Below, in pieces: positions 4,022 to 62,921 of a DNA stretch of 64,000 bases; the stretch's first letter is position 1, and every line of letters begins with the position of its first letter. The DNA is from Toxonevra muliebris. Its lineage: Eukaryota > Arthropoda > Insecta > Diptera > Pallopteridae. Location: NCBI GenBank assembly GCA_963691655.1, contig OY829327.1:63810079-63874078 (forward strand), given 5' to 3'. Under the pieces are notes generated by a model, which searched no databases, was not told the DNA's origin, and saw nothing but the letters and a program-made list of their open reading frames with translations. The position numbers and the translations under genes were made by a program.

Positions 4022-4298
4022 TATATTTTTTTTCAGCCGAGGTTGATAGCTTTAAATTAAAAGATTATGGAAACTATAGCACCAACCAATTTAATATTTA
4101 TAATCTAAAATATGTATACGATATCATGAATTATTTGCTTGCCTTTATTAAAAAACTTTTGAAAAATGCAACGCTGAAGTGTTCATTACTTTCGATGATT
4201 ATTGTTCTACCAGTACCTAAATAATCTTTACACATACATCACTATTCATAACCGGTTTACATTTGTGTTTAAATGTGTTTGCAGATTTAAAGATAAAT

Positions 4299-4872
4299 AT
4301 GTTTTTCGGGTTCAAAATTGTGATTGCCATAATTTTCATTCATTGCTTCACAGCAATTAATTGTGTCATAATATCAGGAAATGAGAAATATATTTACAAA
4401 ACAAAGTTTTTCGATGTTCCTTTAGATAACTTCAATTTCGCTATAAATAAAACATTTAAATTGCGTTATTTATACAATGACACTTTTGCTAATGGCAATA
4501 CTTCGCCCATATTTTTTTATACTGGAAACGAAGGTGACATTGAACTTTTTGCCAAAAATACAGGATTTATGTGGAAGTTAGCTGCTCAATTTAAAGCAGT
4601 TGTAGTCTTCGCGGAGCACAGATACTATGGAAAGTCCCTTCCATTCGGTGACAGTACCTTCAATGTTACTGAACACATAGGTTTTTTGTCAGTTGAGCAA
4701 ACTTTAGAAGATTATGCCAAATTGATTGACTATTTAAAAGATGGAAAACAAACTCCTGTAATTGCTTTTGGAGGGTCTTATGGAGGTATGCTAGCCGCAT
4801 GGTTGCGTATAAAGTTCCCACATCTTGTATTTGGAGCACTAGCAGCTTCAGCGCCAATCTGGCAATTTAATG
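4299..4872 (+). CDS. Serine carboxypeptidase family S28 (prolyl carboxypeptidase-like), first coding exon
   Basis: This exon encodes 191 residues plus one base. S28 enzymes remove residues C-terminal to proline in lysosomes or outside the cell. Residues ~1-22 form a hydrophobic signal peptide. The family landmarks follow in order: FFYTGNEGDI, a VFAEHRYYG block, and the nucleophile motif GGSYGGM with the catalytic serine near residue 160, then ALAASAPIWQF. Several N-glycosylation sequons (NKT, NDT, NVT) fit a secreted protein. I chose ATG 4299 because it begins the signal peptide; the in-frame sequence before it lacks an ATG, and TTTGCAG at 4287-4293 may be a 5'UTR splice acceptor. The exon ends at AATG|GTAAGA, leaving phase 1. 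No stop or frameshift interrupts it, unlike all transposon frames here. Catalytic Asp and His lie in later exons. Likely a live host gene. Confidence 0.92.
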
Positions 4873-5229
4873 GTAAGATAAACATTAACAAGTACTAAAC
4901 AATATAATACATGGATTTCTAAAATTTTCGCTAAGCTTAGTTAACCTCCATTTTGCCACTGATAGTGTTTCGAAAAAGTGGATAATTTTTCGTCTCAAAA
5001 ACTCAAAAAATTAATTTCTTTAGTTTTTGAATATATTTCATTTTTAGCGTTTTGGCGCTAATTAGATATGTAAATATATTTTTAATTCAGAAATTTGGTA
5101 GTAAACCCACATTTTTTGTGTTATGAAAACGAAATGTAAGAAGGTATTTCAGATGTGTAATTTTATTAAAAAGTTATGATATTATTTCTAAAAAATTGTA
5201 TTTAATATAATTGAAGCATCCTTTATATT
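4873..5229 (+). other. Start of intron 1, no element recognised
   Basis: Intronic sequence after the GTAAGA donor. AT-rich, without an open frame or a repeat I can match elsewhere in the window. Confidence 0.6.
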
Positions 5230-15440: not shown

Positions 15441-16680
15441 CCACCTTGATGAAAAAGTTCCCGGAATAACCACCGTGTGGCGCTCCCATCGTATCGGTTT
15501 GGGTCTTTTTTGTTAAGTTGGTACATCTGTTGTTGATATTCCCTCTAAATTTTAGCGTCATAGCTTGACATTTGCAAAAGTTACGTAGCTAAGAGTAAAT
15601 CTATCTCCGTGTGTGTTGGCGATTTTTTACAATTTTAGAAATGGATTTAAACTTGCAACAACGATCTTGTATTGAATTTTGCGTAAAAAACGGAAAAGTG
15701 TTTCGGAAACGATTCTCTAAAGAAAACGGTCGTTTACCAGTGACACGAGCGGTTCAAAAGTGGTCGTGAGTCAATCGAAGATAATGAACGCAGTGGTAAA
15801 CCATCGACATCGAAAATCGACGAAAACATTAATAAAGTAAAATAAATTTTGGTCAATAACCGCAAATTAACCATCAGAGAGATAGCAGAGGACTTGAACA
15901 TTGCCTATGGATCCGTCCAATTGTCTATGGGTTTCCGTCGTGTAGCAGCAAAGTTGGTGCCAAAAGACCTAAATTTCATGCAAAAAAGAGACCGTGTTAA
16001 CGTCGTAAAAGGCATGATTTGTCAGGCTGAATCTGATCCCACATTCATCAAAAAGATCATTAATTGAGACGAGACCTGGGTTTATGAGTACGACACGCAA
16101 TGCAGACATCATGCAAGTGAATGGCGTTCACCAAATGAGCCGAGACCAAAAAAACCACGTCGTTTTCAGTCAAAAAAGAAGGCAATGCTCACGGTTTTCA
16201 TAGATTTCAACGGTGTAGTGCATCACGAATTTTTGCCAGAAGGCCAGACTGTAAACAAAGAGTATTATTTGGCCGTTATGAGATATTTGCGTGAAGCGAT
16301 TTGCCGAAAGAGATCAGAATTGTGGACAGAAAACTCGTGAATTTTGCACCATGATAATGCACCGTCGCACAGTGCCATCATTATTCGTAATTTTTTGACG
16401 AAAAATGCAAGAAATACCATCCAACAGCCACCGAATTCTCCTGATTTGCTCCCTGTGACTTCTTTCTGTTCAATCGAGTTAAAACCCATTACGGGGAACG
16501 CGTTTCAGCAGCCGAGAGGAAAATCGCAGAAAGCACTGATGGACATACCGAAAACCGAATATAAAAAAAGTGTGTTGAAGTCGATGGGGATTACTTTGAA
16601 GGGGACAATATAGATTTAGATGAATAAACTTGTATTTTTAATTTTCTGAATAAATTCCAGGAACTTTTTGATCAAGGTGT
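15441..16680 (+). mobile_element. mariner transposon, complete ends, inactive
   Basis: Terminal inverted repeats CCACCTTGATGAAAAAGTT and, inverted from the right, ACACCTTGATCAAAAAGTT are flanked by TA on both sides (15439-15440 and 16681-16682). The length (1240 bp) is near the usual 1.3 kb. The element encodes a defective transposase (see separate entry). A second copy of the same subfamily lies at 34953-35944 in the opposite orientation. Confidence 0.92.
15641..16626 (+). pseudogene. mariner transposase (DD34D type), broken
   Basis: The frame opens with MDLNLQQRSCIEFC at an ATG at 15641 and runs to a stop after WS. The rest is in other frames: RESIEDNERSGKPSTS, NNRKLTIREIAEDLNIAYGS (helix-turn-helix), RRVAAKLVPKDLNFM, DETWVYEYDT (first catalytic Asp), HHDNAPSHSA (second Asp), PNSPDL..CDFF (third Asp, in a shifted frame) and DYFEGDNIDLDE at the end. 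Several stops and frameshifts are present, including a stop just before DETWV. Both window copies share a shortened SVQLSMGFRR segment where mariners usually have about nine more residues, so the source element was already altered. Confidence 0.9.
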
Positions 16681-16739
16681 TATTTTGTGTTGTCAGTTGG
16701 TCAGTTGATCTAAATAACGTTGCGTTGCCACTACTGTAG

Positions 16740-27379: not shown

Positions 27380-28667
27380 AAGCGCGGTTCACGCCAAATT
27401 GGCACGCTTTGTTGTGGCCACCACGTCGCCCCTAGTCATAAGAACAACAAATTTTTTACTGGGATTTGTTTACAATACCGTTACCGTTAGTTGACAAAAT
27501 TTTCATATTAATTGATCGCAAGTTGGTGATTGTGTGCACAATGGAAGCTGCAAATAGAAAATTGATTGTGAACAAATTTATTGAAAATCCGTCGTGGTGT
27601 GGTTCAAAGATTGCGAAAGTGTTAAATATCTCCAAAAAAAACCGTATGTAGAGTTATAAATCGATATAAAGAAACTATTAGTGTTGAAAGAGCTAAAAAA
27701 GTTGTGAACAAAACGGGAACCACCAACCTTAAATTAAAGGCAAAGATCTTGAGGTCCATCAAAAGCAATCACGTACTATCCGATAGCGATCGTGCCAAAA
27801 AATTCAATACCAGCAAAAGTACTGCTAGAAGAATACGCATAAAAGCTGGGCTAAAGTGCTATCGTGCTATAAAATATCCAAATAGAACAGACAAACAGAA
27901 TTTGCTGGCCAAAAAACGTGCTCGTCTTCTTTATAATAATGTTTCAATCAAATTCAATGGATGCATTATTGTGGATGACGAATCATACGTAAAAATTGAT
28001 CTTAAACAGCTTCCAGGTCAAAAATTTTATATGGCAACGAATCGTGGTAATGTACTCTCAAAATTCAAGTACATAAAAATGGATAAATTTGCAAAGAAAG
28101 CAATGGTGTGGCAGGCTATTTGCAGCTGTGGTCTCAAATCCAGGGCACTTGTGACATCCTCTTCTATGACGTCTGATATTTACATCAAAGAGTGCTTTTC
28201 TAAACGACGACTGCCATTTGTTCGTCACCACCATTCGCCAGTGAAGTTTTGGCCTGATTTAGCCAGTTGCCACTACTCTAAGAAAACCATGGATTGGTAT
28301 CAGACAAATAAAGTAGATGTAGTGCCCAAATATATGAATCCACCCAATTGCCCCCAGCTTCGACCGATCGAAAAATACTGGGCTATTACAAAATATAAGT
28401 TGAAGAAAAATGCAGGTATTGTCAAAAATGTGAAATCAATGTTACTAAAATGGTACCAAATAGCCGCAAAAGTATCCAGAGCGGATGTTCAAAGGTTGAT
28501 GGGGTCCATTAAAAGGAATACCCGGAACTTTTTGCACAACAAAGAAATTTAAATCTTTCAATATTATAGTATTAAAACACAATATTAAACTTATCATTTA
28601 ATGCATTATTTGGTATTCTGAGTGTTCTGGTTAAAAAGATACAGCGTATTTTGCGTGAACCGCGCTT
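27380..28667 (+). mobile_element. Tc1-like DD37E transposon, nearly intact
   Basis: Terminal inverted repeats AAGCGCGGTTCACGC at both ends with TA outside each (27378-27379 and 28668-28669). Length is 1288 bp, and the single transposase gene inside has only one visible lesion. This is the best preserved element in the window and probably the youngest insertion of its class here. Confidence 0.93.
27541..28552 (+). pseudogene. Tc1-like transposase (DD37E) with a single frameshift
   Basis: ATG 27541 opens MEAANRKLIVNKFIENPSW with a helix-turn-helix (SKIAKVLNIS). At an A-run around 27633-27640 the frame shifts by one base; dropping one A would read on as KKTVCRVINRY. The main frame then continues unbroken to 28552: TTNLKLKAKIL, STARRIRIKAGLK, IIVDDESYVKID (first Asp), QLPGQKFY, AMVWQAICSCG, PVKFWPDLASCHYS (second Asp) and PQLRPIEKYWA (Glu). 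There are 37 residues between the second Asp and the Glu, which defines the DD37E type first described in mosquitoes. About 337 residues in all, the normal size. The A-run slip could also be a sequencing error, in which case the gene would be intact. Confidence 0.9.
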
Positions 28668-33770: not shown

Positions 33771-34952
33771 TAGGGAAGACGCCAGTTTCAGCTACAAAAT
33801 AAAATTAAATAATTACATAAAATATAAAATGAAATATTAATTTTTAACGGGTGCTGTTGTTTGTTTCCACAATCATGTGATTCGTAAATAAATAAAATTA
33901 TTAAAAATGTTGAAGTGCGCATAATTGGTCTTCACCAACTTTCAGTTCATCTTTCACAAGTTTTATAAGTTCTCTACTTTTATTAATATTTTCTGTTATT
34001 TTTCTTTTTTTTTTTGTGTAAACATTTTAGCTCACGGTATGGGCAAAATTTCAATTGTGTAAAATGTAAGAATAACTGTAACGTGATATAACTGTAACGT
34101 CCAGTTCCCCTCTCGCTCACACTACTGCGTGGCATGACTGTGCTACTCTAAACAACAAAGAGAAGAAGAGAGGGAGAAATTAAAATACGCGCGGAGTTTG
34201 TTTATGTTTCGATCAATTTACTCACATATATATGGTATGTACATACCAAAACAAAATGTGTGTGTACATTTATTCGTGGCAGAACTATTTGTTGGTGTTA
34301 AACGTGTGGAGTCGACTATACCATATAAGCAGAGAGGTCGCCGTAGCAAACACAGGCGTTTGTTAGATTGTGCATTCGGTTAGTTAGATTGGATTAAAAT
34401 TAAATATTTTTCAAAATATAAAAACAATACAAAAGATTAAGTAATAAAGAATCTAGGTTTCAAAAAAGGTATAAGCAAAATGTAGTGATAACGATAGCAA
34501 ACCAAATAAGGAAAATCTCATTGCGGTGCTTTTAAAAAGTAGTGGGGGGCTGGTCACCCCTGTTGCCTTTCTAAGGTTAAATGCGGGAAGTACTTATGTA
34601 AAATTTTCACATCTAATAAAATTTCAAATCGACAGGAAGAAAAAATTAAAGCGCGGAAAAAATGCAATTGCAGCTGCGTATATGCGAGCATTTCGTACCC
34701 GATGCATTGAGTAAAAGAAAAATACTGCAACTACAACACATCAGCCCTATTCACGATTTGGTGCAAATGCAAAATATTTCTTCTATCACAACAAATATAT
34801 GATATATGGAATAAAAATTCGCATTTGCAATGATGCAAAACCATTTGCAATTTATAGAGAATTGGACTATTATATATAAAAGATAATGATATCTAATAAA
34901 TTTTTAAGTTTATAAAAGAATTGTTTTAATTTGAATTGTTCACCTAAGCATA
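33771..34952. other. No gene recognised
   Basis: Intronic sequence between piggyBac and mariner 2. It includes a relatively GC-rich stretch (34080-34390) with pyrimidine/purine tracts (CCCCTCTCGCTCACAC, GAGAAGAAGAGAGGGAG) that might be an LTR or promoter-like fragment, and GCAAATG repeats near 34760-34850. No coding homology. Confidence 0.4.
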
Positions 34953-35944
34953 CCACCTTGATCAAAAAGTTCCTGGAATTTATTCAGAAAATTAAAAATA
35001 CAAGTTTATTCATCTAAATCTATATTGTCCCCTTCAAAGTAATCCCCATCAACTTCAACACCCTTATGCCAGCGCTTTATCCAATCCTCGAAACATTTTT
35101 TATATTCGGTTTTCGGTATGTCCATCAGTGCTTTCTGCGATTTTCCTCTCGGCTGCTGAAACGCGTTCCCCGTAATGGGTTTTTTTAACTAGATTGAACA
35201 GAAAAAGTCAGAGAGCCAAATCAGGTGAATTCGGTGGCTGTTGGATGGTATTTGTTGCATTTTTCGTCAAAAAATTACGAATAATGATGGCACTGTGCGA
35301 CGGTTTATTATCATGGTGCAAAATCCACGAGTTTTCTGTCCACAATTCTGGTTTCTTTCGACGAATTGTTTAACGCAAACGTCTCATAATGCCCAAATAA
35401 TACTCTTTGTTTACTGTCTGTCCTTCTGGAAAAAATTCATGATGCACTACACCGTTGTAATCCATGAAAACCATGAGCATTGCCTTATTTTTTGACTGAA
35501 AACGACGTGGTTTTTTTTTGGTCTCGGCTCATTTGGTGAACGCCATTCACTTGCTTGATGTATGGATTGCGTGTCGTACTCATAAACCCACGTCTCGTCT
35601 CCATTAATGATCTTTTTGATAAATGTGGGATCAGATTCAGCATGACAAATCATGCCTTTTGCGACGTTAACACGGTCTTTTTTTGGCATGAAATTTAGGT
35701 CTTTTGGCACCAACTTTGCTGCTACACGACGGAAACCCATAGACAATTGGACGGATCCATAGGCAATGTTCAAGTCCTCCGCTATCTCTCTGATGGTTAA
35801 TTTGCGGTTATTGACCAAAATTTATTTTACTTTATTAATGTTTTCGTCGGTTTTCGATGTCGATGGTTTACCACTGCGTTATCTTCGATTGACTCACGAC
35901 CACTTTTGAACCGCTCGTGTCACTGGTAAACGACCGCTTTCTTT
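34953..35944 (-). mobile_element. mariner transposon copy 2, 5'-truncated
   Basis: The plus-strand left border TACCACCTTGATCAAAAAGTT is the 3' terminal repeat of the same mariner as 15441-16680. The other end stops inside the coding region near 35944, within the part that reads PVTRAVQKW in copy 1. It encodes the same transposase with VNNRKLTIREIAEDLNIAYG, the same shortened SVQLSMGFRR, NGDETWVYEYDT intact (first Asp without the stop seen in copy 1), and HHDN followed by KPSH. Frameshifts after PRPKK destroy the C-terminal half. Confidence 0.88.
35447..35818 (-). pseudogene. mariner transposase fragment with intact DETWV motif
   Basis: Longest open piece of mariner copy 2 (about 123 codons): helix-turn-helix end, linker WRSPNEPRPKK and the first catalytic Asp in DETWVYEYD. 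Compared with copy 1 it lacks the premature stop before DETW, showing the two copies decayed independently after sharing the SVQ deletion. Confidence 0.85.
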
Positions 35945-43728: not shown

Positions 43729-45016
43729 AGGAGTGAGATCGAAAAAATCTTAACATATATAAAATTCAATAATTTTTAAACGGTTGATTATTAGAGTTTT
43801 GATTTTTTTTTTTTATTTAATTGATAATATTTTTACAAATTACAGAAAAATATAACTTGTAGTTCTAACCACTATTTATGAACTCATGGACCTTTTTTGG
43901 TAAGCCTTCCATTAGAGATTTAATAGTTGTTTCAGACACCTTTTTGGAATAGTTTGCCCATCTCCTTTTAAAATTTTCGATGTTTTGGGACACCTTTTTT
44001 GTGCTCTTTGAGTTTCTTTTAACAAGAGTCCAATATCTCTCCACTGGTCTTAGCTCCGGACAATTTGTAGGATTGGCCTCTCTTGGTACAAAAACAATGT
44101 TATTACTTTGGTACCACTCCAGAGCTTTCTTGCCGTAGTGACATATATAAAAATATGTGGACACGTTGTGCTCTCTTATGAAAGGAAGAAGTCTTTTTTT
44201 TAAACATTCTTTGATGTATATTTCGGTATTTATAGAGCCCACTGTATCAAATGACTTGCTTCTTTTGCCGCAACTGCATATAGCTTGCCATACCAGGAAT
44301 TTTTGAGGAAATTTTGTCTGCTTTTGGATTCTAAATTGTTCTTCGACATTTCCTCGAGCATCACCAACTTAGAAATTTTGACCCGGAAGCTGCGTAAAAT
44401 TTGCCAGTACATACGTTTCGTCGTCCATTATACAACATGAATATTTTTGTATGAAATTCGATTTTAATTTCCGAGCCCTACTTTTGGCATCTAAATTTTT
44501 TGCAGCATTCCTGTCTGAAGCTTTTTGGACTTTGTATGTTTTCAAACCTACATTGGCTTTAACTTTTCGCACCAAATAGTCAGAGCACTGGGCTAACCGG
44601 GCAGCTTTTCTACCAGATGTGGTTGTAGATCTTTTCAATATGCTTTCTATTTTCTTGGCTTTCCCAATATCATGTGGTTCTTGTTTTCTTCCCGAACCAG
44701 GTTTCCTATCGATGGTCGAATTCTCCTGAAACTGTTTAATAACATTGGAAACAGTTTGACGGCAGACCTTCAATTCTTTGGCCAATTTTTTGTATGACCA
44801 ATTTGGATTTTTTTTGAAAATTTTTAATAATTTTAAGACGTACTTCCTTTTCTTCACTCATTTTGATCAAACTCACAATAAATCAACATGTTTGTCATTA
44901 AAAATAACAACTAACATATTTTTCAAAGATAACTAGATCAAAGAAATGTTTAAATTTTACACCCAAAAAAAATTATTAGGTAAAACGTGTCTTAAGATTT
45001 TTTCGATCTCACTCCT
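43729..45016 (-). mobile_element. Tc1-like DD37E-type transposon, inactive copy
   Basis: Terminal inverted repeats AGGAGTGAGATCGAAAAAAT at both ends, with TA outside each (43727-43728 and 45017-45018). Length 1288 bp, the same as the 27380-28667 element although the terminal repeats are unrelated in sequence. The transposase gene is on the minus strand and broken. Confidence 0.92.
43865..44857 (-). pseudogene. Tc1-like transposase, two frameshifts and damaged catalytic site
   Basis: Starts near 44857 with KKRKYVLKLLKIFKKNPNWS, a helix-turn-helix (YKKLAKELKVCRQTVSNVI), a basic GSGRKQ linker and a second helix region (RKAARLAQCSDYLVRKV). MDDETYVLANF carries the first Asp, followed by QLPGQNF and a frameshift. 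The third piece has GSINTEIYIKECLKKRLL, CHYGKKALEWYQSNN and NCPELRPVERYW (Glu). The second catalytic Asp, expected in a W.D.A.CHY motif, is lost in a small deletion: the sequence reads YFYICHYG. Related in type to the elements at 26154 and 27380 but a different subfamily. Confidence 0.9.
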
Positions 45017-45999: not shown

Positions 46000-46890
46000 A
46001 AGCAAGTTCGGTATGCCTCGTATATGGGACATTTACATATAAGGTTTCTTCTTCTGCCATGTTACAAATAGAACAGGTGTAATTTGGATTAATTCTATGA
46101 GACATATTATTAATGGTTAAAACAAAACATCTGGTGTTTGCTGTTCGTCTAACCTTCTGAATTGGAGCGTTGATGTTAGTTAACGAACAAGTTCCTAAAA
46201 ATTTGTAGTTTGGAACATAGAGCTCATGATTAGGTTGGTCTCCATATTATTGTAGAAATTACTAAGGTCACAAGTGATTGTGTTCAGCTTTCGCTGGAGA
46301 GTATGAGGATTAGCGTTAGCCAGATGATGTTCTTTATTCACCTGGCAGAGGTAGTTTTTTAATAACGAAAACCAGTTGTACTTCGTAATGTTTGCAGCAG
46401 ATGCATCTAATTTGATTAGAGCAATTTGACATCTTTTAGGGTATCTATTCACATCCATGCTTAAAATTTTACATAATAGTTTGATGGCTCTGTTGACAGA
46501 TGTAATAATTAAGTTGTTTAGCTTGAATTCTCTTCGAACAATGTAATTTGGCGTAGATTGGTCTATAAATTACAATGACTTAAAAAACCTAGTTTGCGTC
46601 TTTTGTAAGCAGTCTGGGTAGTTCAGAGCCCAAACTTCCGATCCATCTAACAAAACACTTAATATAAGTCTGTTGAAAAGGTAAACTCGGGAGCTATGTG
46701 ATTGCATTTTGGTTTTAATGAGAATATGTTTAACTTGTGACATTGCGGAGTTCGCTTTAGTCAACATTTGTTTGTTGGTATTGAGGAATAACCCAGAACT
46801 ACAGAATGGTATACCCAGATAAGTGTACTCTTTGACTAGTTCCAATTCCGTATGATCGAACTTAAAACGAAGATTTCTTGAAATTCTACC
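46000..46890 (-). pseudogene. LINE ORF2, C-terminal part
   Basis: Continues ORF2 beyond the inserted element: ELELVKEYTYLGIPFCSSG, QVKHILIKTKMQSHS, NRLILSVLLDGSEVWAL, QKTQTRFFKSL, then after a frameshift RYPKRCQIALIKLDASA, and a CCHC-like end CSICNMAEEETLY..CPIYEAY near 46010-46100. The thumb-to-C-terminus order is that of LINE polymerases. Followed by a short 3' untranslated sequence and no obvious poly(A). Confidence 0.82.
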
Positions 46891-46895
46891 TGCCG

Positions 46896-48304
46896 CACAG
46901 TGCTTCGAGAGTGGACAAAAATCAAAAAAAATTTATGTCTCCGATCACTAAAATTTTGATGTCATTTTAAAGGTAATAGATTTAAGACTTTTACAAAAAA
47001 ATTGCTTAAAAATCAGGTATCATTGACAGCGCTTTTATTTTTTTTTTTTAACTGAACCTTTTTTTTTAGAAATTTTTTTTTAAATTAATATTTTTTCAGA
47101 GAAAAACTTAAAAAATCGTCAACTTCAGTAAAGAATATAAAGATTTAGGCCGCAAAAGGCTGTGGTCTCGTGCTTTTTTTTTTTGTTAATAGCAATCCTT
47201 ACTTTCTTAAATGGTGGAAAAAAATTGGCCAACTTCGTCCAACCTTAGGAGAAAATCAATATTTACTAATACTCTTAAATACAAAAAAAAAAAAAAAAAA
47301 TTAAGAAATTTATTAAACTACTATTTCAACTTTTTAAAGCAATTTTTTTGGTACCATAATTTCCATAGCTTGGTCATCAAAACATACTAAAAAATCAATT
47401 TTAACCTATTAGTGACAAACCTCAAGTAAATACATTGAATTTAAATTTCTCCGAGTTTTAGGAGTCTCCTAATATTGACAAATGCCCATGTTTGGTATAC
47501 AAATTACATATGTTGGCGTACAAAATATTTGAATTGGTAAAAAAAATTCTTGAAATTAAAAGAAAAAACACAAGTTTTAGGAAGGGGCGTGACTAGAGGG
47601 TTAAATTAAGGTTTTTAGAAATCTATATTCTATTAATTTTGGCATTCGCAAACGTGAACACCCTTGGTTTTAATTAGTTCACGTTATTCGAGAATCCACT
47701 GCATTTTTGAAACAGTTACTTTTGGCTGTTATGTCAATATTTAAATTTGTGTTAGTATTTTGCAAAGCAGACTGTTTTATAAAAATATACTTAATTAGAA
47801 AATCTATTTTATTATATATATCTATGATAAAAGTTGGGACATTTTAAGAAGGTGAATTAGCGTTGTATTTTAAATAGTGTTCTATCCCAAACCGAAAGAA
47901 ATGATGGAGCATAGGTTCTTAATTGGCAATATTTAAAAAATAGTTGCACTGATATTTTAATAAATTTTTTTTAATTTTGAAGCTTCTGCAAAAAAAAATT
48001 TATCTGAAAACAGAAATCGGTACCAAAAAACCGATTTTAGAATCAGCATACTATAACCCTTTAGCAAATGCTATTTTTAATTTTTAGTTAGGCGCATCCA
48101 AATTCAAGCAATAATTTACATAGTATCTTAAAAGGTAAAAAAATTGGAAAAGAACCGGTTTTATAAAAAAGGGTAACCGGTACCAAAAAAACGATTCTAT
48201 TTTTGAAATCATTATGCCATAATCCTTTAGGAAATTAAGTTTCATCAAATTCAAATAACTCATTCTATTTTTGTCCAACTTTTATATGGGGACGGAGCAC
48301 TGTG
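46896..48304. mobile_element. Transib-like element with 12- and 23-spaced RSS-like ends
   Basis: Left end: CACAGTG (46896-46902), 12 bp, ACAAAAATC (46915-46923). Right end, inverted: CACAGTG (48304-48298), 23 bp, ACAAAAATA (48274-48266). The consensus recombination signal is CACAGTG with ACAAAAACC after 12 or 23 bp. The direct repeat TGCCG flanks the element (46891-46895 and 48305-48309). Removing the element plus one TGCCG joins the host LINE codons in frame (FKAA into GRISRNLRF). Five-bp duplications and CACWATG-like ends are known for Transib transposons, the RAG1 relatives. The 1409-bp interior is non-coding, so it would depend on a transposase supplied elsewhere. Confidence 0.88.
48005..48245 (+). 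repeat. Direct repeat inside the Transib-like element
   Basis: CGGTACCAAAAAACCGATT...CATACTATAACCCTTTAG near 48018-48065 recurs as CGGTACCAAAAAAACGATT...CATTATGCCATAATCCTTTAG near 48178-48232. Imperfect, about 50-60 bp per unit, spacing about 160 bp. Its role, if any, is unknown. Confidence 0.7.
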
Positions 48305-48309
48305 TGCCG

Positions 48310-50520
48310 CCTTGAAGACAATGACTTTGGATTTATTGGCATTCACTGTGAGATTATTACTAGTACAGAACATTTTCAGGGCGTCTAGGGCCTTTTGGAG
48401 ACTTGTAGGGCTGTCAGCTAGAAGAATCAGGTCGTCAGCGTAGAGTAGAGAATGAATATGCAGATTATAAACGTAAATTCCTTCCACATTTTGAGTTTCC
48501 AAGTGATCATTTAGGTCTACAAGGAATAAACTAAAAAGGAGTGGGCTTAGTGGGTCCCCCTGGAGAACGCCTTTATGGATTGGGATTTCATCGACTTGTG
48601 TACCTTTTAATATTGCAGTTATGTATGCATTACCATAGAAATTGCGAATGATTCTTATAAGCTTGGAGCTCAGCCCAAGAGAGTTATGGTTCACAGTGTC
48701 GAATGCTTTTTTAAAATCTATAAAGGCAGCAAAGAGCTTCTTTTTTTTTTACAAATATGGAGACTGATAATTGCATTTAAAGTAAAAATGTTGTCTGTAC
48801 AAGAACGACCCCTACGGAAACCTGACTGATGCTCGGGAATAATGGAGAGCGCATCAGCCCAGGAGGCGATTCTGTTTGAGATTATGTGTGTAAGCGTTTT
48901 CGCTATAGTGTTTATAAGGGCTAGGCCTCTATAATTATCGGGGAGAGTGTTATCTCCCTTTTTGTGTATTAAAATGAGTTTAGAGTGTGACCACTTTTTA
49001 GGGATGTCTTCGCTCTGCAAAATATTATTGAATAATTGCAATATAACATTTATGCCTTCACTAGGTAGATTTTCCCAAAACTAATTAGTGATTTCATCAA
49101 GGCCAGCGGATTTGGCACTCTTTAGAGTTACAAGTGTATCTACAAGTTCAGAAAGTGTAATGACTTGATCTAGGAATGCATGCCTAGCATCGAGGAAAAA
49201 TGTTGGTGATGGTAGGTATGCTTCAGCAAACAAGCCTGTCAAATAGGTACGCCATATGCCTGGTTCAATTGGATTGCCAGTTTGTGGTTTTTTTTGTTAG
49301 TTTTTTTGATTAAAGCCCAGAAGTCTTGTATGCTTTTAACTTGTGAAAATGTAATCTGAAGTTTTATAAAATACTCTTATTTTTTTAGATTAATTGTGTC
49401 TTTAAAAGATTTTTTCAAAGTTAAGTAATTTGAAAGTTCGATTGTCTGGAATGAACATTTTTTACATTTTCTTAGGGCTCTACGATGAAGTTTCTTGTGT
49501 GCAGCACAGTTGCCATCAAACCAAGGTTTAGAGCGAGCATTAATGAAGGGATCTGTGCGAACATGCGACATACGTAAGTCATGAGCGACAGCCGTGATTA
49601 ACTCTACCAGGTGGTCGTAAATTTGAGTACTTAATTGTTCGCTAAAATCGAGTTGTTTTAATCTTAGAGACATCAAAGATTGTAAGGACTCTGAAGCATT
49701 CTCTACCCATTTTAGAGAACGTGAATTAGATGTGTTAACAATTGTTGTGGTGGTATTGCTGGGGCGACCGTCATCAAGAATGATTAAGTAAGGTACGTGG
49801 TCGGAGGTTGTTGTGGACAACAGTATTTTCAAGTCCACTACTGAGCTGAGAAGGTTTAAGCTGATCCGGCATAGGTCTACGGTAGAGCACCCGTTGCTAC
49901 TAATGAATGTGAATTGCGCGGGGGAATCGCTTAGCGTACGACCATTCAATGCATAGAGCCCATTATTTACCATAAACTCAACTAACTTTATCCCTCTGCT
50001 ACTCACATGTTTATCCAACGAAGATCTGGTTTCATTAAGTGCTGTATTCTCGCACAACTCCTTGTTTATTAGATTTAGATTTCCAATTCTACCATTGAAG
50101 TCCCCAATTTGAACGAAATCATTATGGCTTGTGAAAGTAATTTTATCTAACGTTGTGTTTAAATTCCACAGGACATCGTCAATGTTAACAATAGAGGGAG
50201 ATAGATAAATTGCACCTAAAATAAATTTTTGTACATAAGATTTGATTTCTATAAAAATCCAGAAGTTAGAAGTTTCAACAATTTCGGCTTGTAAATGATT
50301 TTTAGTTAAAACAACAATTCCTCCACTCGCGCGACCTTTAATACCACTTTTTACAGCTGAAGATTCGAAACACTTGTAATTTAAAGAAAATTGAGAATTA
50401 ACAAATGAAGAGATGAGCCGGTTTTCAGTTAAGCAAATGATGTCGAAATCATTGAGAGAACTAACTTCATGAGATACATAATTAATAAAATTTGAAATTC
50501 CGTGGCAGTTCCAGGAGAGG
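48310..50520 (-). pseudogene. LINE ORF2: AP endonuclease and reverse transcriptase, first part
   Basis: Begins QLKILSWNCHGISNFI (endonuclease, WNC motif) and continues with ICLTENRL, QIGDFNGRIG and a TTTSDHVPYLIIL motif (SDH active site). The reverse transcriptase follows with PKKWSHSKLILIHKKGD, NYRGLALINTIAKTL, HQSGFRRGRSCTDNIF, FIDFKKAFDTV, GVLQGDPLSPLLFS, LLYADDLILLA (YADD catalytic box) and ANKSKVIVFKA. Lesions visible: a stop just before FWENLPSEG near 49085 and a frameshift at a T-run at 48741-48750. The reading stops at the Transib-like insertion and resumes at 46890. Confidence 0.88.
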
Positions 50521-56216: not shown

Positions 56217-58123
56217 AACTGAACAGGAAACAGAAAGTGGGCACGGAAACTATTAGAAAAAATAAGAAGATATGAGACGGAAGCCATTAAAATAAGACGA
56301 AAAACGGGGACGGAAACTAAAAGATAATCCAGTTCCACAACCACAATGTTTCCATTTGGGGTTATTACATAGCGAAGTGAAAAATAAAAGAGATGTAGAA
56401 ATGTTGAAAATCCCTCAAATTGGTTTGGTATATTTAACATTAATTTGTATTACTAGATTTTTACTTATAAGAATACGTGTGTGCGTTATTTGTGTACAAA
56501 GAATATTTGTTTTCACAATAAAACATAAATGACAGATCTTCAATAAGTGAGAAAGAGATGACTAGATACAATAATATCCATATAATAGGAATAACATCAT
56601 CTGTTGCTTTTATAGCTCAATGCAAAACATAAATAATGTAAATATATGACTATATGACTTGTTTAATACAAGTAAGTGTTGCATATCAAAAACTATTTAT
56701 TATCTATTAGTTAGTTTTTCAATAGCAACGCCATCTGTTGATTTTATAGCACTATGAAAACCATAAATACGAATATATCAATAGCAACGTCATCTGTTGC
56801 TTTTATAGCGCAATGCAAAACATAAACAATATAAATATATTCGAATCTACTACTATAAATAAAGAACGTAAAAAACAAATCGTGTTCGCAAATATTTAGT
56901 GCGACATAAAAAAGAATAATTTACTTCTTCTCTTTTATTAAAGTAATTTTTCGTTTACATTAAAAAGAAAACAGTGCAAAATCAATCTCAACAAAATTTC
57001 GGTACCAATCAAGCTGATGTGCGTGAAAATCCACACTCACAAAATACAATGGCAGAAGAATAAAGAAGGTAGATGCATTTTGGCAAGTAAGAGGAACTTT
57101 TTCAAGGTATTTCCTAATAAAGAAAACTAATTTTAATAACATTATTTATAAGTTTTTTATTATGAATAAAATTTTTAATTTAGTACTAAGTAATAAAAGT
57201 AGTATTAATAATCTACTATTAACTCACTCTTTTCTATCCATTTAAAAAAATGCACCTCTAAAATGTTTCTCTTTTTAAAAATTTAAAGTGGATACTTTTT
57301 GAAAAAATGCATCTCCCTCTAAATACTTCTACCATGGGTAAAAGTATTTAGAAAATTTATTTTCAAATACCAAATTCAAAATAAACCAGTTTTACGTTCG
57401 ACTTAAGCACTTTTGATAAATACCAGACCTAATTAGTTTTGAGAAAAAATCATCTGGTCTTAAGCAATTATGAAAAACACAGGTGGGGCTGAAAGGAAGC
57501 GCACTTGACAAAGCCTTGTTTCCCAAACGATTATGTAGGGGCTCTGAGAACATTATACTATATAAATTACACTATTTTATTACAATAAAATTATTGAAAA
57601 TATCACTAAAAAAATCAAAGTTAGACGATACTTAAAATTTATGTAAGAAATATATATATATAAAAGAAAACATAAAGCATCTGCATGAATGCGGCCATGT
57701 GCAAAGCCAAAAATTTAAGTTTATCACAATACAGTAGTAGAAGAAGCAAAGAATTCGATTGGCTGAAAGGGACTTAAGCAATTTTGATTTACACTTACGA
57801 TGGGACTTAGTCATTTTTAAAAAAATAGTTAATATTAAATAGGTTTTTTTAATTCAATTAACATTAATTAGGCTCATTTCTTTTGTTTAAACTATTTATT
57901 TGTTCGGTCATTGTGTATTGCATCAAAAATCTGGAAAATTTTCGTATATGGCCTTAGGCAATTTTGATATGTACCGATTAATATTCACTATTTAAATGCC
58001 ATGTCCATACATACAATTATCTCTCCCAGTCTGCTGTTATTACACTTATATATTCCTAGTCACAAACCTACCAAAGAAGTTTCACTTCCATCGAGTGCAC
58101 TAAGTTGCGTATGTGAGTTTTTT
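56217..58123 (-). repeat. Arm B of a dispersed repeat, inverted relative to 135-2641
   Basis: Reverse complement of arm A, lacking the inserted block at 985-1457 and the 101-bp duplication of that copy. It contains the same AACGCCATCTGTTG subrepeats (56590-56800) and CTTAAG-containing motifs (57400-57790). It begins inside the Tc1-type transposase remnant at its left, which it truncates, so one of the two borders of the unit is near 56217. Non-coding. Confidence 0.75.
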
Positions 58124-60025: not shown

Positions 60026-61383
60026 TCATTTGATGACTCCACCTTGCGTTTTTAAAGTGGCGACACGAACCTTCCCATCAGTACCTGCGTGTGTTTCTAC
60101 AATTCTGCCTAGTAGCCAACTATTGCAAAGGAATCGTTCGTCTTTAATAAAAACGACGTCGTTTATTTGTAGATTTGGTCTAGATCGTAGCCATCTTGGT
60201 ATTCTCGATCGGGCGCGATAGATATTCACTGCTCCAGCGACGCCAAAATTGTTGAACCAAAAATTGACAATTTTGCCAGTGTACTTAAGTTTCCAACTTC
60301 TGGTGAGGGTGGTGCGAAAAGCGCATCTCCGGTTAAGAAATGACTCGGGGTCATGACCATCCAGTCATCGGGATCATTTGTTAGAGGACGGAACGGCCTA
60401 GAGTTCAGGCAGGATTCGATTTGCGCAAGCACTGTAGCCAATTCTACGAAAGTAAGCACTCGATCTCCCATAGTTCGCTTCAGATGATGCTTGATGGACT
60501 TTACGCCTGCTTCCCACAGCCCCCCAAAGTGGGGTGCAGAAGCAGGTATGAAATGCCATTGAATTTGTTTTTTGTTTAGGAATGGTAGACCGAACGTAAG
60601 TTCGGTAATGCTGGGAGGCTGCCCATAAGCTGGTCTTGTACCTTTGGCTTGCACCGGTAGCAGACGATGCAGCGATGAATAATAAATCTAACTGCATTTC
60701 GCCCATTTATAATCCAAAAACGTTTCCTAGTGTAATTTAAGGTGACAGCTGCACCGCCATGTAGCGTGGTGAGATGGCTGTAATTAATTAATAGTTCCGT
60801 GAAATGGTGTTTTGCTATTTTGATATTTTTCTTTAACTGGTAGAAGAGAGTCCCGGGGACGTCCTCCCAAACGTAGGACATTCTCGGAGTGGTCAAAGAA
60901 AGGGTTCAATGGTGTTAGAGTACTACCGTCAGGAACATTACGATTTGAAGATAGCGCATTCCACTCGGAGGTGAATGCGTCACGCTGTACTAAAGATACT
61001 ATGCTCGTCAAACTCTGATTTAGTTCTTCAACAAGCAAAGCGTCTTTTCGCTTGTCTTTTGGATGGCGGCAATTAAAGCTGAATCTCTGACAGTAGGCGA
61101 CAACGCGTAATAAACGTGTATACGAAGAAACTTCGTCGATAAAAACTGATAGATGGGGTTTTTCGATGTTGATCAAGTTTACCTTTAAACGGACCATTTC
61201 CGATTCGACGACCGATTTTGGTAGAGTTGTATCAAGTGTGGTGTTTGGCCAGCACTGGTAAGGTTTACGCAACCAAAGTGGCCCATTCCACCAAAGTTGA
61301 TGCGTTTGCTTCGTCGGGTTAAGCCCGCGACAGGAACAGTCTGCCGGGTTATCTGCTGACGCCACATACCGCCACTGCTGCAC
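60026..61383 (-). pseudogene. BEL/Pao integrase, core deleted
   Basis: YVASADNPADCSCRGL and LWWNGPLWL (linker), the HHCC-type zinc region with LRVVAYCQRF and LHGGAAVTLNYTRKRFWI, then CIVCYRCKPKVQDQLMGSLP. After this the expected catalytic Asp-containing core is missing: the frames jump to TELTFGLPFLNKKQIQWHFI, PASAPHFGGLWEAGVKS with the Glu region, NSRPFRPLTNDPDD, and the C-terminal VFIKDERFLCNSWLLGRI. The deletion removes most of the DDE core, so no active integrase can be made. Confidence 0.85.
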
Positions 61384-61406
61384 ATCAGAAAACTCTAAAA
61401 TTTTGC

Positions 61407-62921
61407 TTAAACGATTCGCAATGAAAACCTTCCAACGAGCGGAATCACCTCGAATTTATCCAAGCACCACCATCGAGTCGGACCAGAGAACAGTTTTAGA
61501 GAAGTCAATTTTGGAATTAAAATTCTTTTTAAGAATTTGTATAATTTTATGGCTAATACAGCTGCACATAATTCTGCTCGTGGTATCGTTAGCCTAGGTT
61601 TGATTGGCGCTACCTTGCATTTAGCCATTAGTAAGCTTGTGTAATGACACTTATGTCCATCTTGCGCTCTGAGGTACGCTGCGGCAGAGTATGCATGAGC
61701 CGAAACATCGCAAAAGATATGAAGACTGCTTGCGGTGTTGTGATGGCTTGTTTTTAGCCAGCGAGGTATTCGTATCGTTGATATAGATGGAAGTCCTGCT
61801 ATGTACTGGGCCCACGATAATTGTAGCTGTTTGGGTAATGCCTCATCCCATCCGAGATTATGGGTCCACAGCTGCTGCATTATTAGCTTTGCTTTAACGA
61901 TGATTGGATTTAACAATCCCAACGGGTCAAATAGGCATTCTATTGTAGATAAGATATTCCTTTTCGTCGGCTGACCGGTTGGAATGTAAAATTTGAAACG
62001 ATAGGCAAATTCATCGGATGCAGGATTCCAGTACATCCCTAATGCTTTCAACGTTTCGCTCTCATTAAGTTGAAGCGTGCTCTTGGTCTCACGATGCTCC
62101 ACAGGAATGCGCTCCAATAACTTGATATGATTGCCAGCCCATTTACGGAGTACAAATGTTCCGCGCTTAAGCATAGATATGGTTTGAAACTGTACGTCGA
62201 GTGCTGCGTCGACTGAATCGCCACCTGATAGAATGTCATCGACGTACATTTGATGATTTATAACACTGACCGCAAGTGGGAAATGGTGTGATTCGTCCTC
62301 GGCGAGTTGCTTCATCGTGCGAATGGCCGAAAATGGTGCCGATCGCGTACCAAACATCACCGTTTAACAGAAGTACTCTTCTATTTCGTCATTTGAAGTA
62401 CGCCGCCATAATATTCGTTGATATTGTGCATCTTCTTCAACTACATCGATACAGCGGTACATTTTTTCAACATCCGCCACAACGCATATTTCAACATTCG
62501 CCAATTTGAAAGAACGGCTGCTAAATTATTTTGTAATGCAGCGCCGCACGCTAGTATGTCATTTAATGAGTTACCATTGCTGGTCTTAGCTGACGCATCA
62601 AAAACAACGCGTACCTTCGTAGTGGACGATGATTCCTTGATCACCGGATGATGTGGTAGGTAACAGCAGGTGGATGTGATTACGTTATTCTTGGAGTCTT
62701 GGTGCTCTTGTTCAGATGATTTGACAGGTTGCATTTGGCCAAGTTGTAAGCTTTTTTAAGGACCGCATCCTGTACGACGTTCTAGATGAAAAAACGCTTT
62801 TGAGCAATATACCTTGACGTGCTAATGACGCTGGAAGGATTGAAGGTAGATAGCAATGGCAGTCGTACGATATATTTACCATCGTCCCTGCGTTGGAACG
62901 TGGATTTGTAAAACTCCCCAC
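61407..62921 (-). pseudogene. BEL/Pao reverse transcriptase and RNase H region
   Basis: Several frames: HHPVIKESSSTTKVRVVFDA (polymerase start) with SLNDILACGAALQ, a frameshift, then FGTRSAPFSAIRTMKQLA and MYVDDILSGGD, with YVDD the catalytic box. Next are STIECLFDPLGLLNPIIVKA and LWTHNLGWDEALP, then the RNase H with IFCDVSAHAYSAAAYL and LTIPRAELCAAVLA. This is the standard BEL pol order. Two or more frame changes between 62360 and 62921 break it. Confidence 0.88.

Follow-up and report, generated by a model that had tools for sequence, protein, structure and literature searches.

A non-autonomous Transib family with 12/23-type ends resembling recombination signals in the fly Toxonevra muliebris

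The finding of an insertion whose two ends resemble the 12/23 recombination signals of V(D)J recombination, within a LINE reverse-transcriptase frame of Toxonevra muliebris, raised the question of whether such a layout is a coincidence of AT-rich DNA, an inherited peculiarity of one founder copy, or a property of a Transib family that its transposase recognises. The window, by which we mean the whole stretch of 64,000 nucleotides that was analysed, carries the following features at this locus:

46896..48304, plus strand: non-autonomous Transib element of 1409 bp, internally shorter than the 1580-bp family consensus
46891..46895, plus strand: left copy of the target-site duplication (TSD), TGCCG, read from the sequence
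48305..48309, plus strand: right copy of the TSD, TGCCG, read from the sequence
46896..46902, plus strand: left heptamer, CACAGTG
46903..46914, plus strand: left spacer of 12 bp, CTTCGAGAGTGG
46915..46923, plus strand: left nonamer, ACAAAAATC
48298..48304, minus strand: right heptamer, CACAGTG, inverted
48275..48297, minus strand: right spacer of 23 bp, CTCCGTCCCCATATAAAAGTTGG
48266..48274, minus strand: right nonamer, ACAAAAATA, inverted
48277..48285, minus strand: ATAAAAGTT, a degenerate box resembling a nonamer, in the right end at offset 12, overlapping the CATACAA core of the 23-ends
48305..48748, minus strand: portion of the LINE reverse-transcriptase frame that precedes the insertion
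46580..46895, minus strand: portion of the LINE reverse-transcriptase frame that follows the insertion, its lower end hand-counted from the translation

The end layout claimed by the first-pass annotation proved exact, with CACAGTG-12-ACAAAAATC on the left, inverted CACAGTG-23-ACAAAAATA on the right and TGCCG on both sides, and its count of one and two differences between these nonamers and ACAAAAACC, the vertebrate nonamer consensus, was right as well. The borders are equally exact, since removal of the element together with one TGCCG joins the LINE frame (...SKVIVFKAAG/RISRNLRF...) through a stop-free junction. The two ends amount to one inverted repeat, in which CACAGTGCTYCG is followed by an 11-bp length difference and then by TGGACAAAAAT. 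As a caution, a weak box of the 12-type is present in the right end as well, where ATAAAAGTT at offset 12 equals ACAAAAATC at 6 of 9 bases. We found no transposase remnant in the window element, and the stop-free stretches of the family consensus reach 68 amino acids at most.

A chance match deserves attention in DNA of this composition, where A-rich nonamers are easily found; in dinucleotide shuffles, each end pattern is expected 0.16-0.19 (about 0.2) times per window when up to two mismatches are allowed. The element's ends, however, match their patterns with 0 and 1 mismatch, and an inverted CACAGTG pair spaced 100-8000 bp apart with an exact outside 5-bp repeat was absent from all 200 first-order Markov sequences. 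By the same distance and repeat criteria, the window element is the sole case in the window among inverted CAC[AT][AG]TG pairs, and one of three among inverted CACNNTG pairs.

Several other features lie in the window. A broken Tc1/mariner-type transposase, named by the look of its sequence, occupies 43865-44857 on the minus strand as two adjoining stop-free frames, and helix-turn-helix families match its 44369-44857 part while none matches 43865-44368. A 308-amino-acid stop-free frame at 27626-28552 (plus strand) has a weak DDE_3 match under the curated cut-off and is perhaps another Tc1/mariner-type relic; a BEL/Pao-type retrotransposon piece at 60784-62363 (minus strand) matches Peptidase_A17 strongly over 61407-62360. 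Two copies of a repeat of roughly 1 kb, in inverted orientation and 91% identical, lie at 15719-16683 and 34950-35944. Close to either end of the window, at 135-2616 and 56276-58122, a set of repeat blocks recurs in inverted orientation with about 80-93% identity. At 4221-4898 (plus strand) there is an exon of a host S28 peptidase (Pro-X carboxypeptidase), whose named near matches, among the best 120 of 3713, are mostly from insects with flies ranking high. Teleopsis, Musca, Lucilia, Drosophila and Megaselia stand near the top at 58-68% identity, while the best score belongs to a nematode record and a fish record ranks high too, so that the exon by itself points to a fly as the probable source.

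As the first-pass annotation had suggested, the genome was searched for copies of the window element (491 Mb in 96 contigs; 40 of 529 candidates scored), which gave at least 95 matching pieces. The pieces other than the window copy were grouped into 39 places, all 39 of which were retrieved, making 40 copies in total. Their ends were located by fuzzy match to the window element's own ends (up to 9 edits), a choice of probe that favours like ends, and the counts leave out copies without a located end (10 of 40 on the left and 6 of 40 on the right). On this basis the left spacer measures 12 in 29 of 30 copies, the exception having 8, and the 29 include the left ends of L039 and L046, which were scored as 12 with the heptamer lost. 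The right spacer measures 23 in 30 of 34 copies; the remaining four were scored 24, 24, 22 and 12, and in these either the heptamer is lost (L030, L044) or the A run at the nonamer is shortened (L012, L024). The heptamer itself, CACAGTG, is present in 25 of the 30 left ends and 29 of the 34 right ends, as is typical of the RSS-heptamer-like termini of Transibs. Copies lacking the 12-bp or the 23-bp nonamer had been named in advance as the outcome that would speak against the claim; instead the layout repeats in nearly all the located ends, and because of this repetition across the genome it is not a product of chance.

Among the 26 copies with both ends, the flanking 5-bp duplication is exact in 17, has one mismatch in four and at least two mismatches in five. 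Over the 21 copies with an exact or one-mismatch TSD the duplications are 75% GC with the consensus CGNCG; GC-biased duplications are described for both Transib and RAG in PMC8289069. A consensus built from the 26 copies is 1580 bp long with 28% GC, and divergence from it averages 3.9%, with 19 copies at 2.3-3.8%, two at about 5.5% and five at 7.2-7.8%. Viral contigs gave no exact match to one DNA pattern and no tblastn-confirmed candidate for two Transib queries, and no match was found in phages.

The enzyme that goes with these ends was approached through the RAG1 profile PF12940, whose single match in the genome is the Transib relic L048; the match of this relic to HzTransib (6pqn) scores 4e-27 and that to RAG1 chains about 1e-4. 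The relic led to longer relatives, among them P0005, which matches 6pqn at 2e-117 and in turn gave, with 67 of 964 candidates scored, at least 76 genomic matches to transposase, many of them with stops. At one locus, L079 (C1:88942600-88947700), we found a 3417-bp element with the ends CACAGTG-12-ACAAAAATA and TACAGTG-23-ACAAAAATA, the first base of the right heptamer thus being T, and with the exact TSD CGTCG. Its outer parts align with the window-family consensus over positions 1-693 at 87% and 1261-1579 at 83%, and between these two consensus-like parts sits a frameshifted transposase. Read through one stop, a 273-amino-acid piece of this transposase matches HzTransib (6pqn) at 4e-62. With DDE residue numbers from PMC6941560, transferred by eye via the alignment, both Asp positions of L079 carry D and the Glu position falls in a frameshift overlap. 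No intact source was seen among the nine transposase loci searched for ends, which include the frameshifted L079. Thus, of the autonomous partner with the same ends that the first-pass annotation had called for, the Transib transposase and the identical 12/23 layout are both present in L079, but the element is broken.

An element of the CACTA/Chapaev type, or of another superfamily with CAC ends, could have been suspected, because CAC termini are present in CACTA elements. The duplications of CACTA/Chapaev-type groups measure 2-4 bp, however, against 5 bp here, and it is a Transib transposase that lies between the same ends in L079; the duplications and L079 together rule out this assignment, to which we attach practically no probability. 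A partner transposase from another superfamily, which had been foreseen as a contrary outcome, did not turn up either, as that of L079 is of the Transib type and related to HzTransib. Because L079 combines the same end layout with an HzTransib-related transposase, we assign the window element to the non-autonomous Transibs, so that the annotation's placement of it as such an element in an insect stands, together with the fixed 12/23 ends and the GC-rich 5-bp duplications.

Constancy of the 12/23 spacing inside one family may, however, reflect a common founder copy only. In that case an ancestor with an 11-bp longer right end would have passed it on while the transposase reads no more than the heptamer and the bases next to it, and with copies averaging 3.9% from their consensus, descent alone would keep the spacing. 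Since constancy in so young a family may equal inheritance, other families were examined, with the enrichment of end patterns judged against reversed-pattern controls. At no more than two mismatches, CACAGTG-N9-TGGACAAAAAT occurs 732 times in the genome against 24 for the reversed pattern, and the 100 listed matches, all exact, comprise several spacer types. CAGTG-N23-ACAAAAA has 1038 matches against 225 for its control, part of the 1038 belonging to another repeat (CCATCATTATTCG...), and CAGTG-N12-ACAAAAA has 733 against 165, part of the 733 being 23-ends caught at their offset-12 box. Among the 23-type matches, the repeated sequence CAGTGCCATCATTATTCGTAATTTTTTGACAAAAA is not a clear Transib end and raises the count. 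On C1 below 53.1 Mb, three of the 12 listed 12-ends have a convergent 23-end within 8 kb among the 100 listed 23-type matches, compared with 0.08 such pairs expected by random placement; one of the three belongs to the window's family. The genome copies and these pattern counts together rule out a chance match, which we consider vanishingly improbable.

The other two of the three convergent pairs are the 12/23-type ends of L093 (4529 bp), with the exact TSD CGTTC, and L094 (2282 bp), with the one-mismatch TSD CAACG/CACCG. Compared with the window family, the terminal 30-120 bp of L093 and L094 align at 76-83% while their interiors are unalignable save for short pieces, and since the terminal parts align, their ends share descent with those of the window family. 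The same terminal 30-120 bp align with the window-family consensus at 71-84% across L089, L090, L091, L093 and L094, which indicates common descent, and because of this resemblance several of the other families are not independent cases. For other 12-end types five loci were retrieved (L088-L092) and the opposite ends read by eye: the spacer is 23 in L088, 22 or, in another register, 23 in L090, and 23 in L092, with TSDs that do not match, and in L089 and L091 the opposite end was looked for and not found. Outside its ends, L092 has only 27 bp that align with the window family. A more distant case is L085, whose transposase and that of L079 share 39% identity over 374 positions; the element is flanked by a TGCCG duplication and its ends are readable as 12 (AAAAAAAAC) and 23 (AAAAATATA), the register of the A-rich nonamers being soft. 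A 23-type right end is kept in L058 and L076.

Symmetric Transibs coexist with these. Of the nine transposase loci searched for ends, L079 and L085 look 12/23, L080 (TSD TGGCG) and L081 (TSD CACTA) are symmetric or nearly so, and five have no convincing ends. Scanning 30 transposase loci, partly the same places as the nine, yielded L065 (C3:23747727-23751134) as the sole clear new pair, a Transib whose symmetric 24/24 ends (CACACTG...TCAAAA) are nearly identical and whose TSD is CAGCG; L064 and L072 have pairs with an exact duplication, and in these the two ends show little mutual likeness and no clear 12/23 layout. What is added to earlier descriptions of 12/23 Transib ends is a single genome with further Transib families of 12/23-type pairs beside symmetric ones.

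How far do these families bear on a founder accident? The coexistence of symmetric Transibs with other ends (L080, L081, L065) and the shared terminal parts are in its favour, as are the HzTransib ends, described in PMC8289069 as heptamer-like with little or no nonamer likeness. Moreover, the part of the ends that is matched within a family is the first spacer bases: in seven same-locus end pairs, of which three lack matching TSDs, comparison of the first six spacer bases gives agreement between the two ends at 36 of 42 positions, a value reached by 12 of 5040 re-pairings, which is not a strict probability because some of the families are mutually related. Against a founder accident, the spacing and both nonamers are kept in L093 and L094 (exact and one-mismatch TSD) despite interiors that hardly align, and again in L092 despite its scant alignment elsewhere, and in L085 the spacing is kept with soft nonamers. 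We therefore hold a founder accident to be a serious possibility that falls short of even odds.

The 23-end has an anatomy of its own. From the 100 listed CAGTG-N23-ACAAAAA matches, manual removal of duplicates and near-duplicates left 68 strings. The strings with a spacer ending in GG reduce to 12 collapsed 23-end types, which have in common a core like CATACAA over positions 10-16 of the spacer; this core matches at 86% at that offset and at 44% or less elsewhere, and 48 other collapsed strings have no CATACAA peak. At offset 12 the 12 types read ACAA exactly in six and ACAAA in four, with the nonamer proper 11 bp further in; the ACAAAA profile, at 0.67 for offset 12 and 0.64 for offset 10, lacks a sharp peak. 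We put forward as speculative, and rather unlikely as it stands, a model that reads the 23-end as a 12-end carrying an additional nonamer box, placed 11 bp (one DNA turn) inward. In this model the asymmetry would have come about by one-sided gain or doubling of an 11-bp nonamer unit and would have persisted in diverged Transib lineages owing to a transposase that pairs unlike ends. If this were true, the 12/23 asymmetry could be traced stepwise through coexisting asymmetric and symmetric Transib families.

Taken together, we conclude with a probability of about 0.93 that the window element is a non-autonomous, RAG1-related Transib, moved in trans by a transposase that recognises 12/23 ends and inserted by a 5-bp staggered cut into a CGNCG-like site of the LINE. 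In such a scheme, a Transib transposase, probably of the L079-type lineage, would act in trans on the element and recognise its two RSS-like ends, whose spacers measure 12 bp on one side and 23 bp on the other, presumably with contacts to the nonamers. By analogy with HzTransib and RAG, cutting might proceed through hairpins on the flanking DNA, and the 5-bp staggered cut in the target would account for the insertion into the LINE.

The suggestion that the element bears on when the 12/23 rule arose is weakened by comparison with the literature. PMC8355894, citing Kapitonov and Jurka 2005, lists 12/23 asymmetry in Transib5 of D. melanogaster and in Transib2, N1, N2 and N3 of An. gambiae, and PMC9435367 assigns asymmetric ends to all Subgroup I Transibs and both kinds to Subgroup II; in PMC8289069, Transib families are described as mostly symmetric. 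Because asymmetric Transib ends have already been described, the window element alone leaves the dating of the rule unchanged. In the open-licence literature we found no paper on the window family, on a side-by-side comparison of asymmetric and symmetric Transibs, or on the offset-12 box. The coexisting 12/23-type and symmetric Transibs lend themselves naturally to a comparison that asks if a Transib transposase enforces 12/23 pairing and if the longer signal arose by an added 11-bp nonamer unit.

Among known systems, Transib5 and the Anopheles elements Transib2, N1, N2 and N3, as listed by PMC8355894, are insect transposons that share with the window element an RSS-like heptamer and nonamer and spacers of 12 and 23 (+/-1). 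HzTransib of Helicoverpa zea (6pqn and others) has a transposase related to that of L079 and a 5-bp duplication, GCTCG in PMC1852546, as here; its ends, however, are described as symmetric with little or no nonamer likeness (PMC8289069), whereas both nonamers and an 11-bp difference are found here. ProtoRAG of amphioxus (27/31) and AanRAGL (4/13) likewise have bipartite asymmetric ends and 5-bp duplications according to PMC8289069 and PMC9435367, but their spacer lengths differ from 12/23; the second element of AanRAGL reads differently from the nonamers here (PMC9435367), and for B. belcheri PMC8355894 states that no RSS-like nonamer was identified, unlike in the window element. The vertebrate 12RSS and 23RSS share with the ends of the window element the heptamer CACAGTG, the spacers of 12 and 23 and, to within one and two bases, the nonamer ACAAAAACC; here, in contrast, the signals are the ends of a transposon in an insect, with no known recombination function. 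The window family provides a clean multi-copy case of RSS-like 12/23 ends outside vertebrates.
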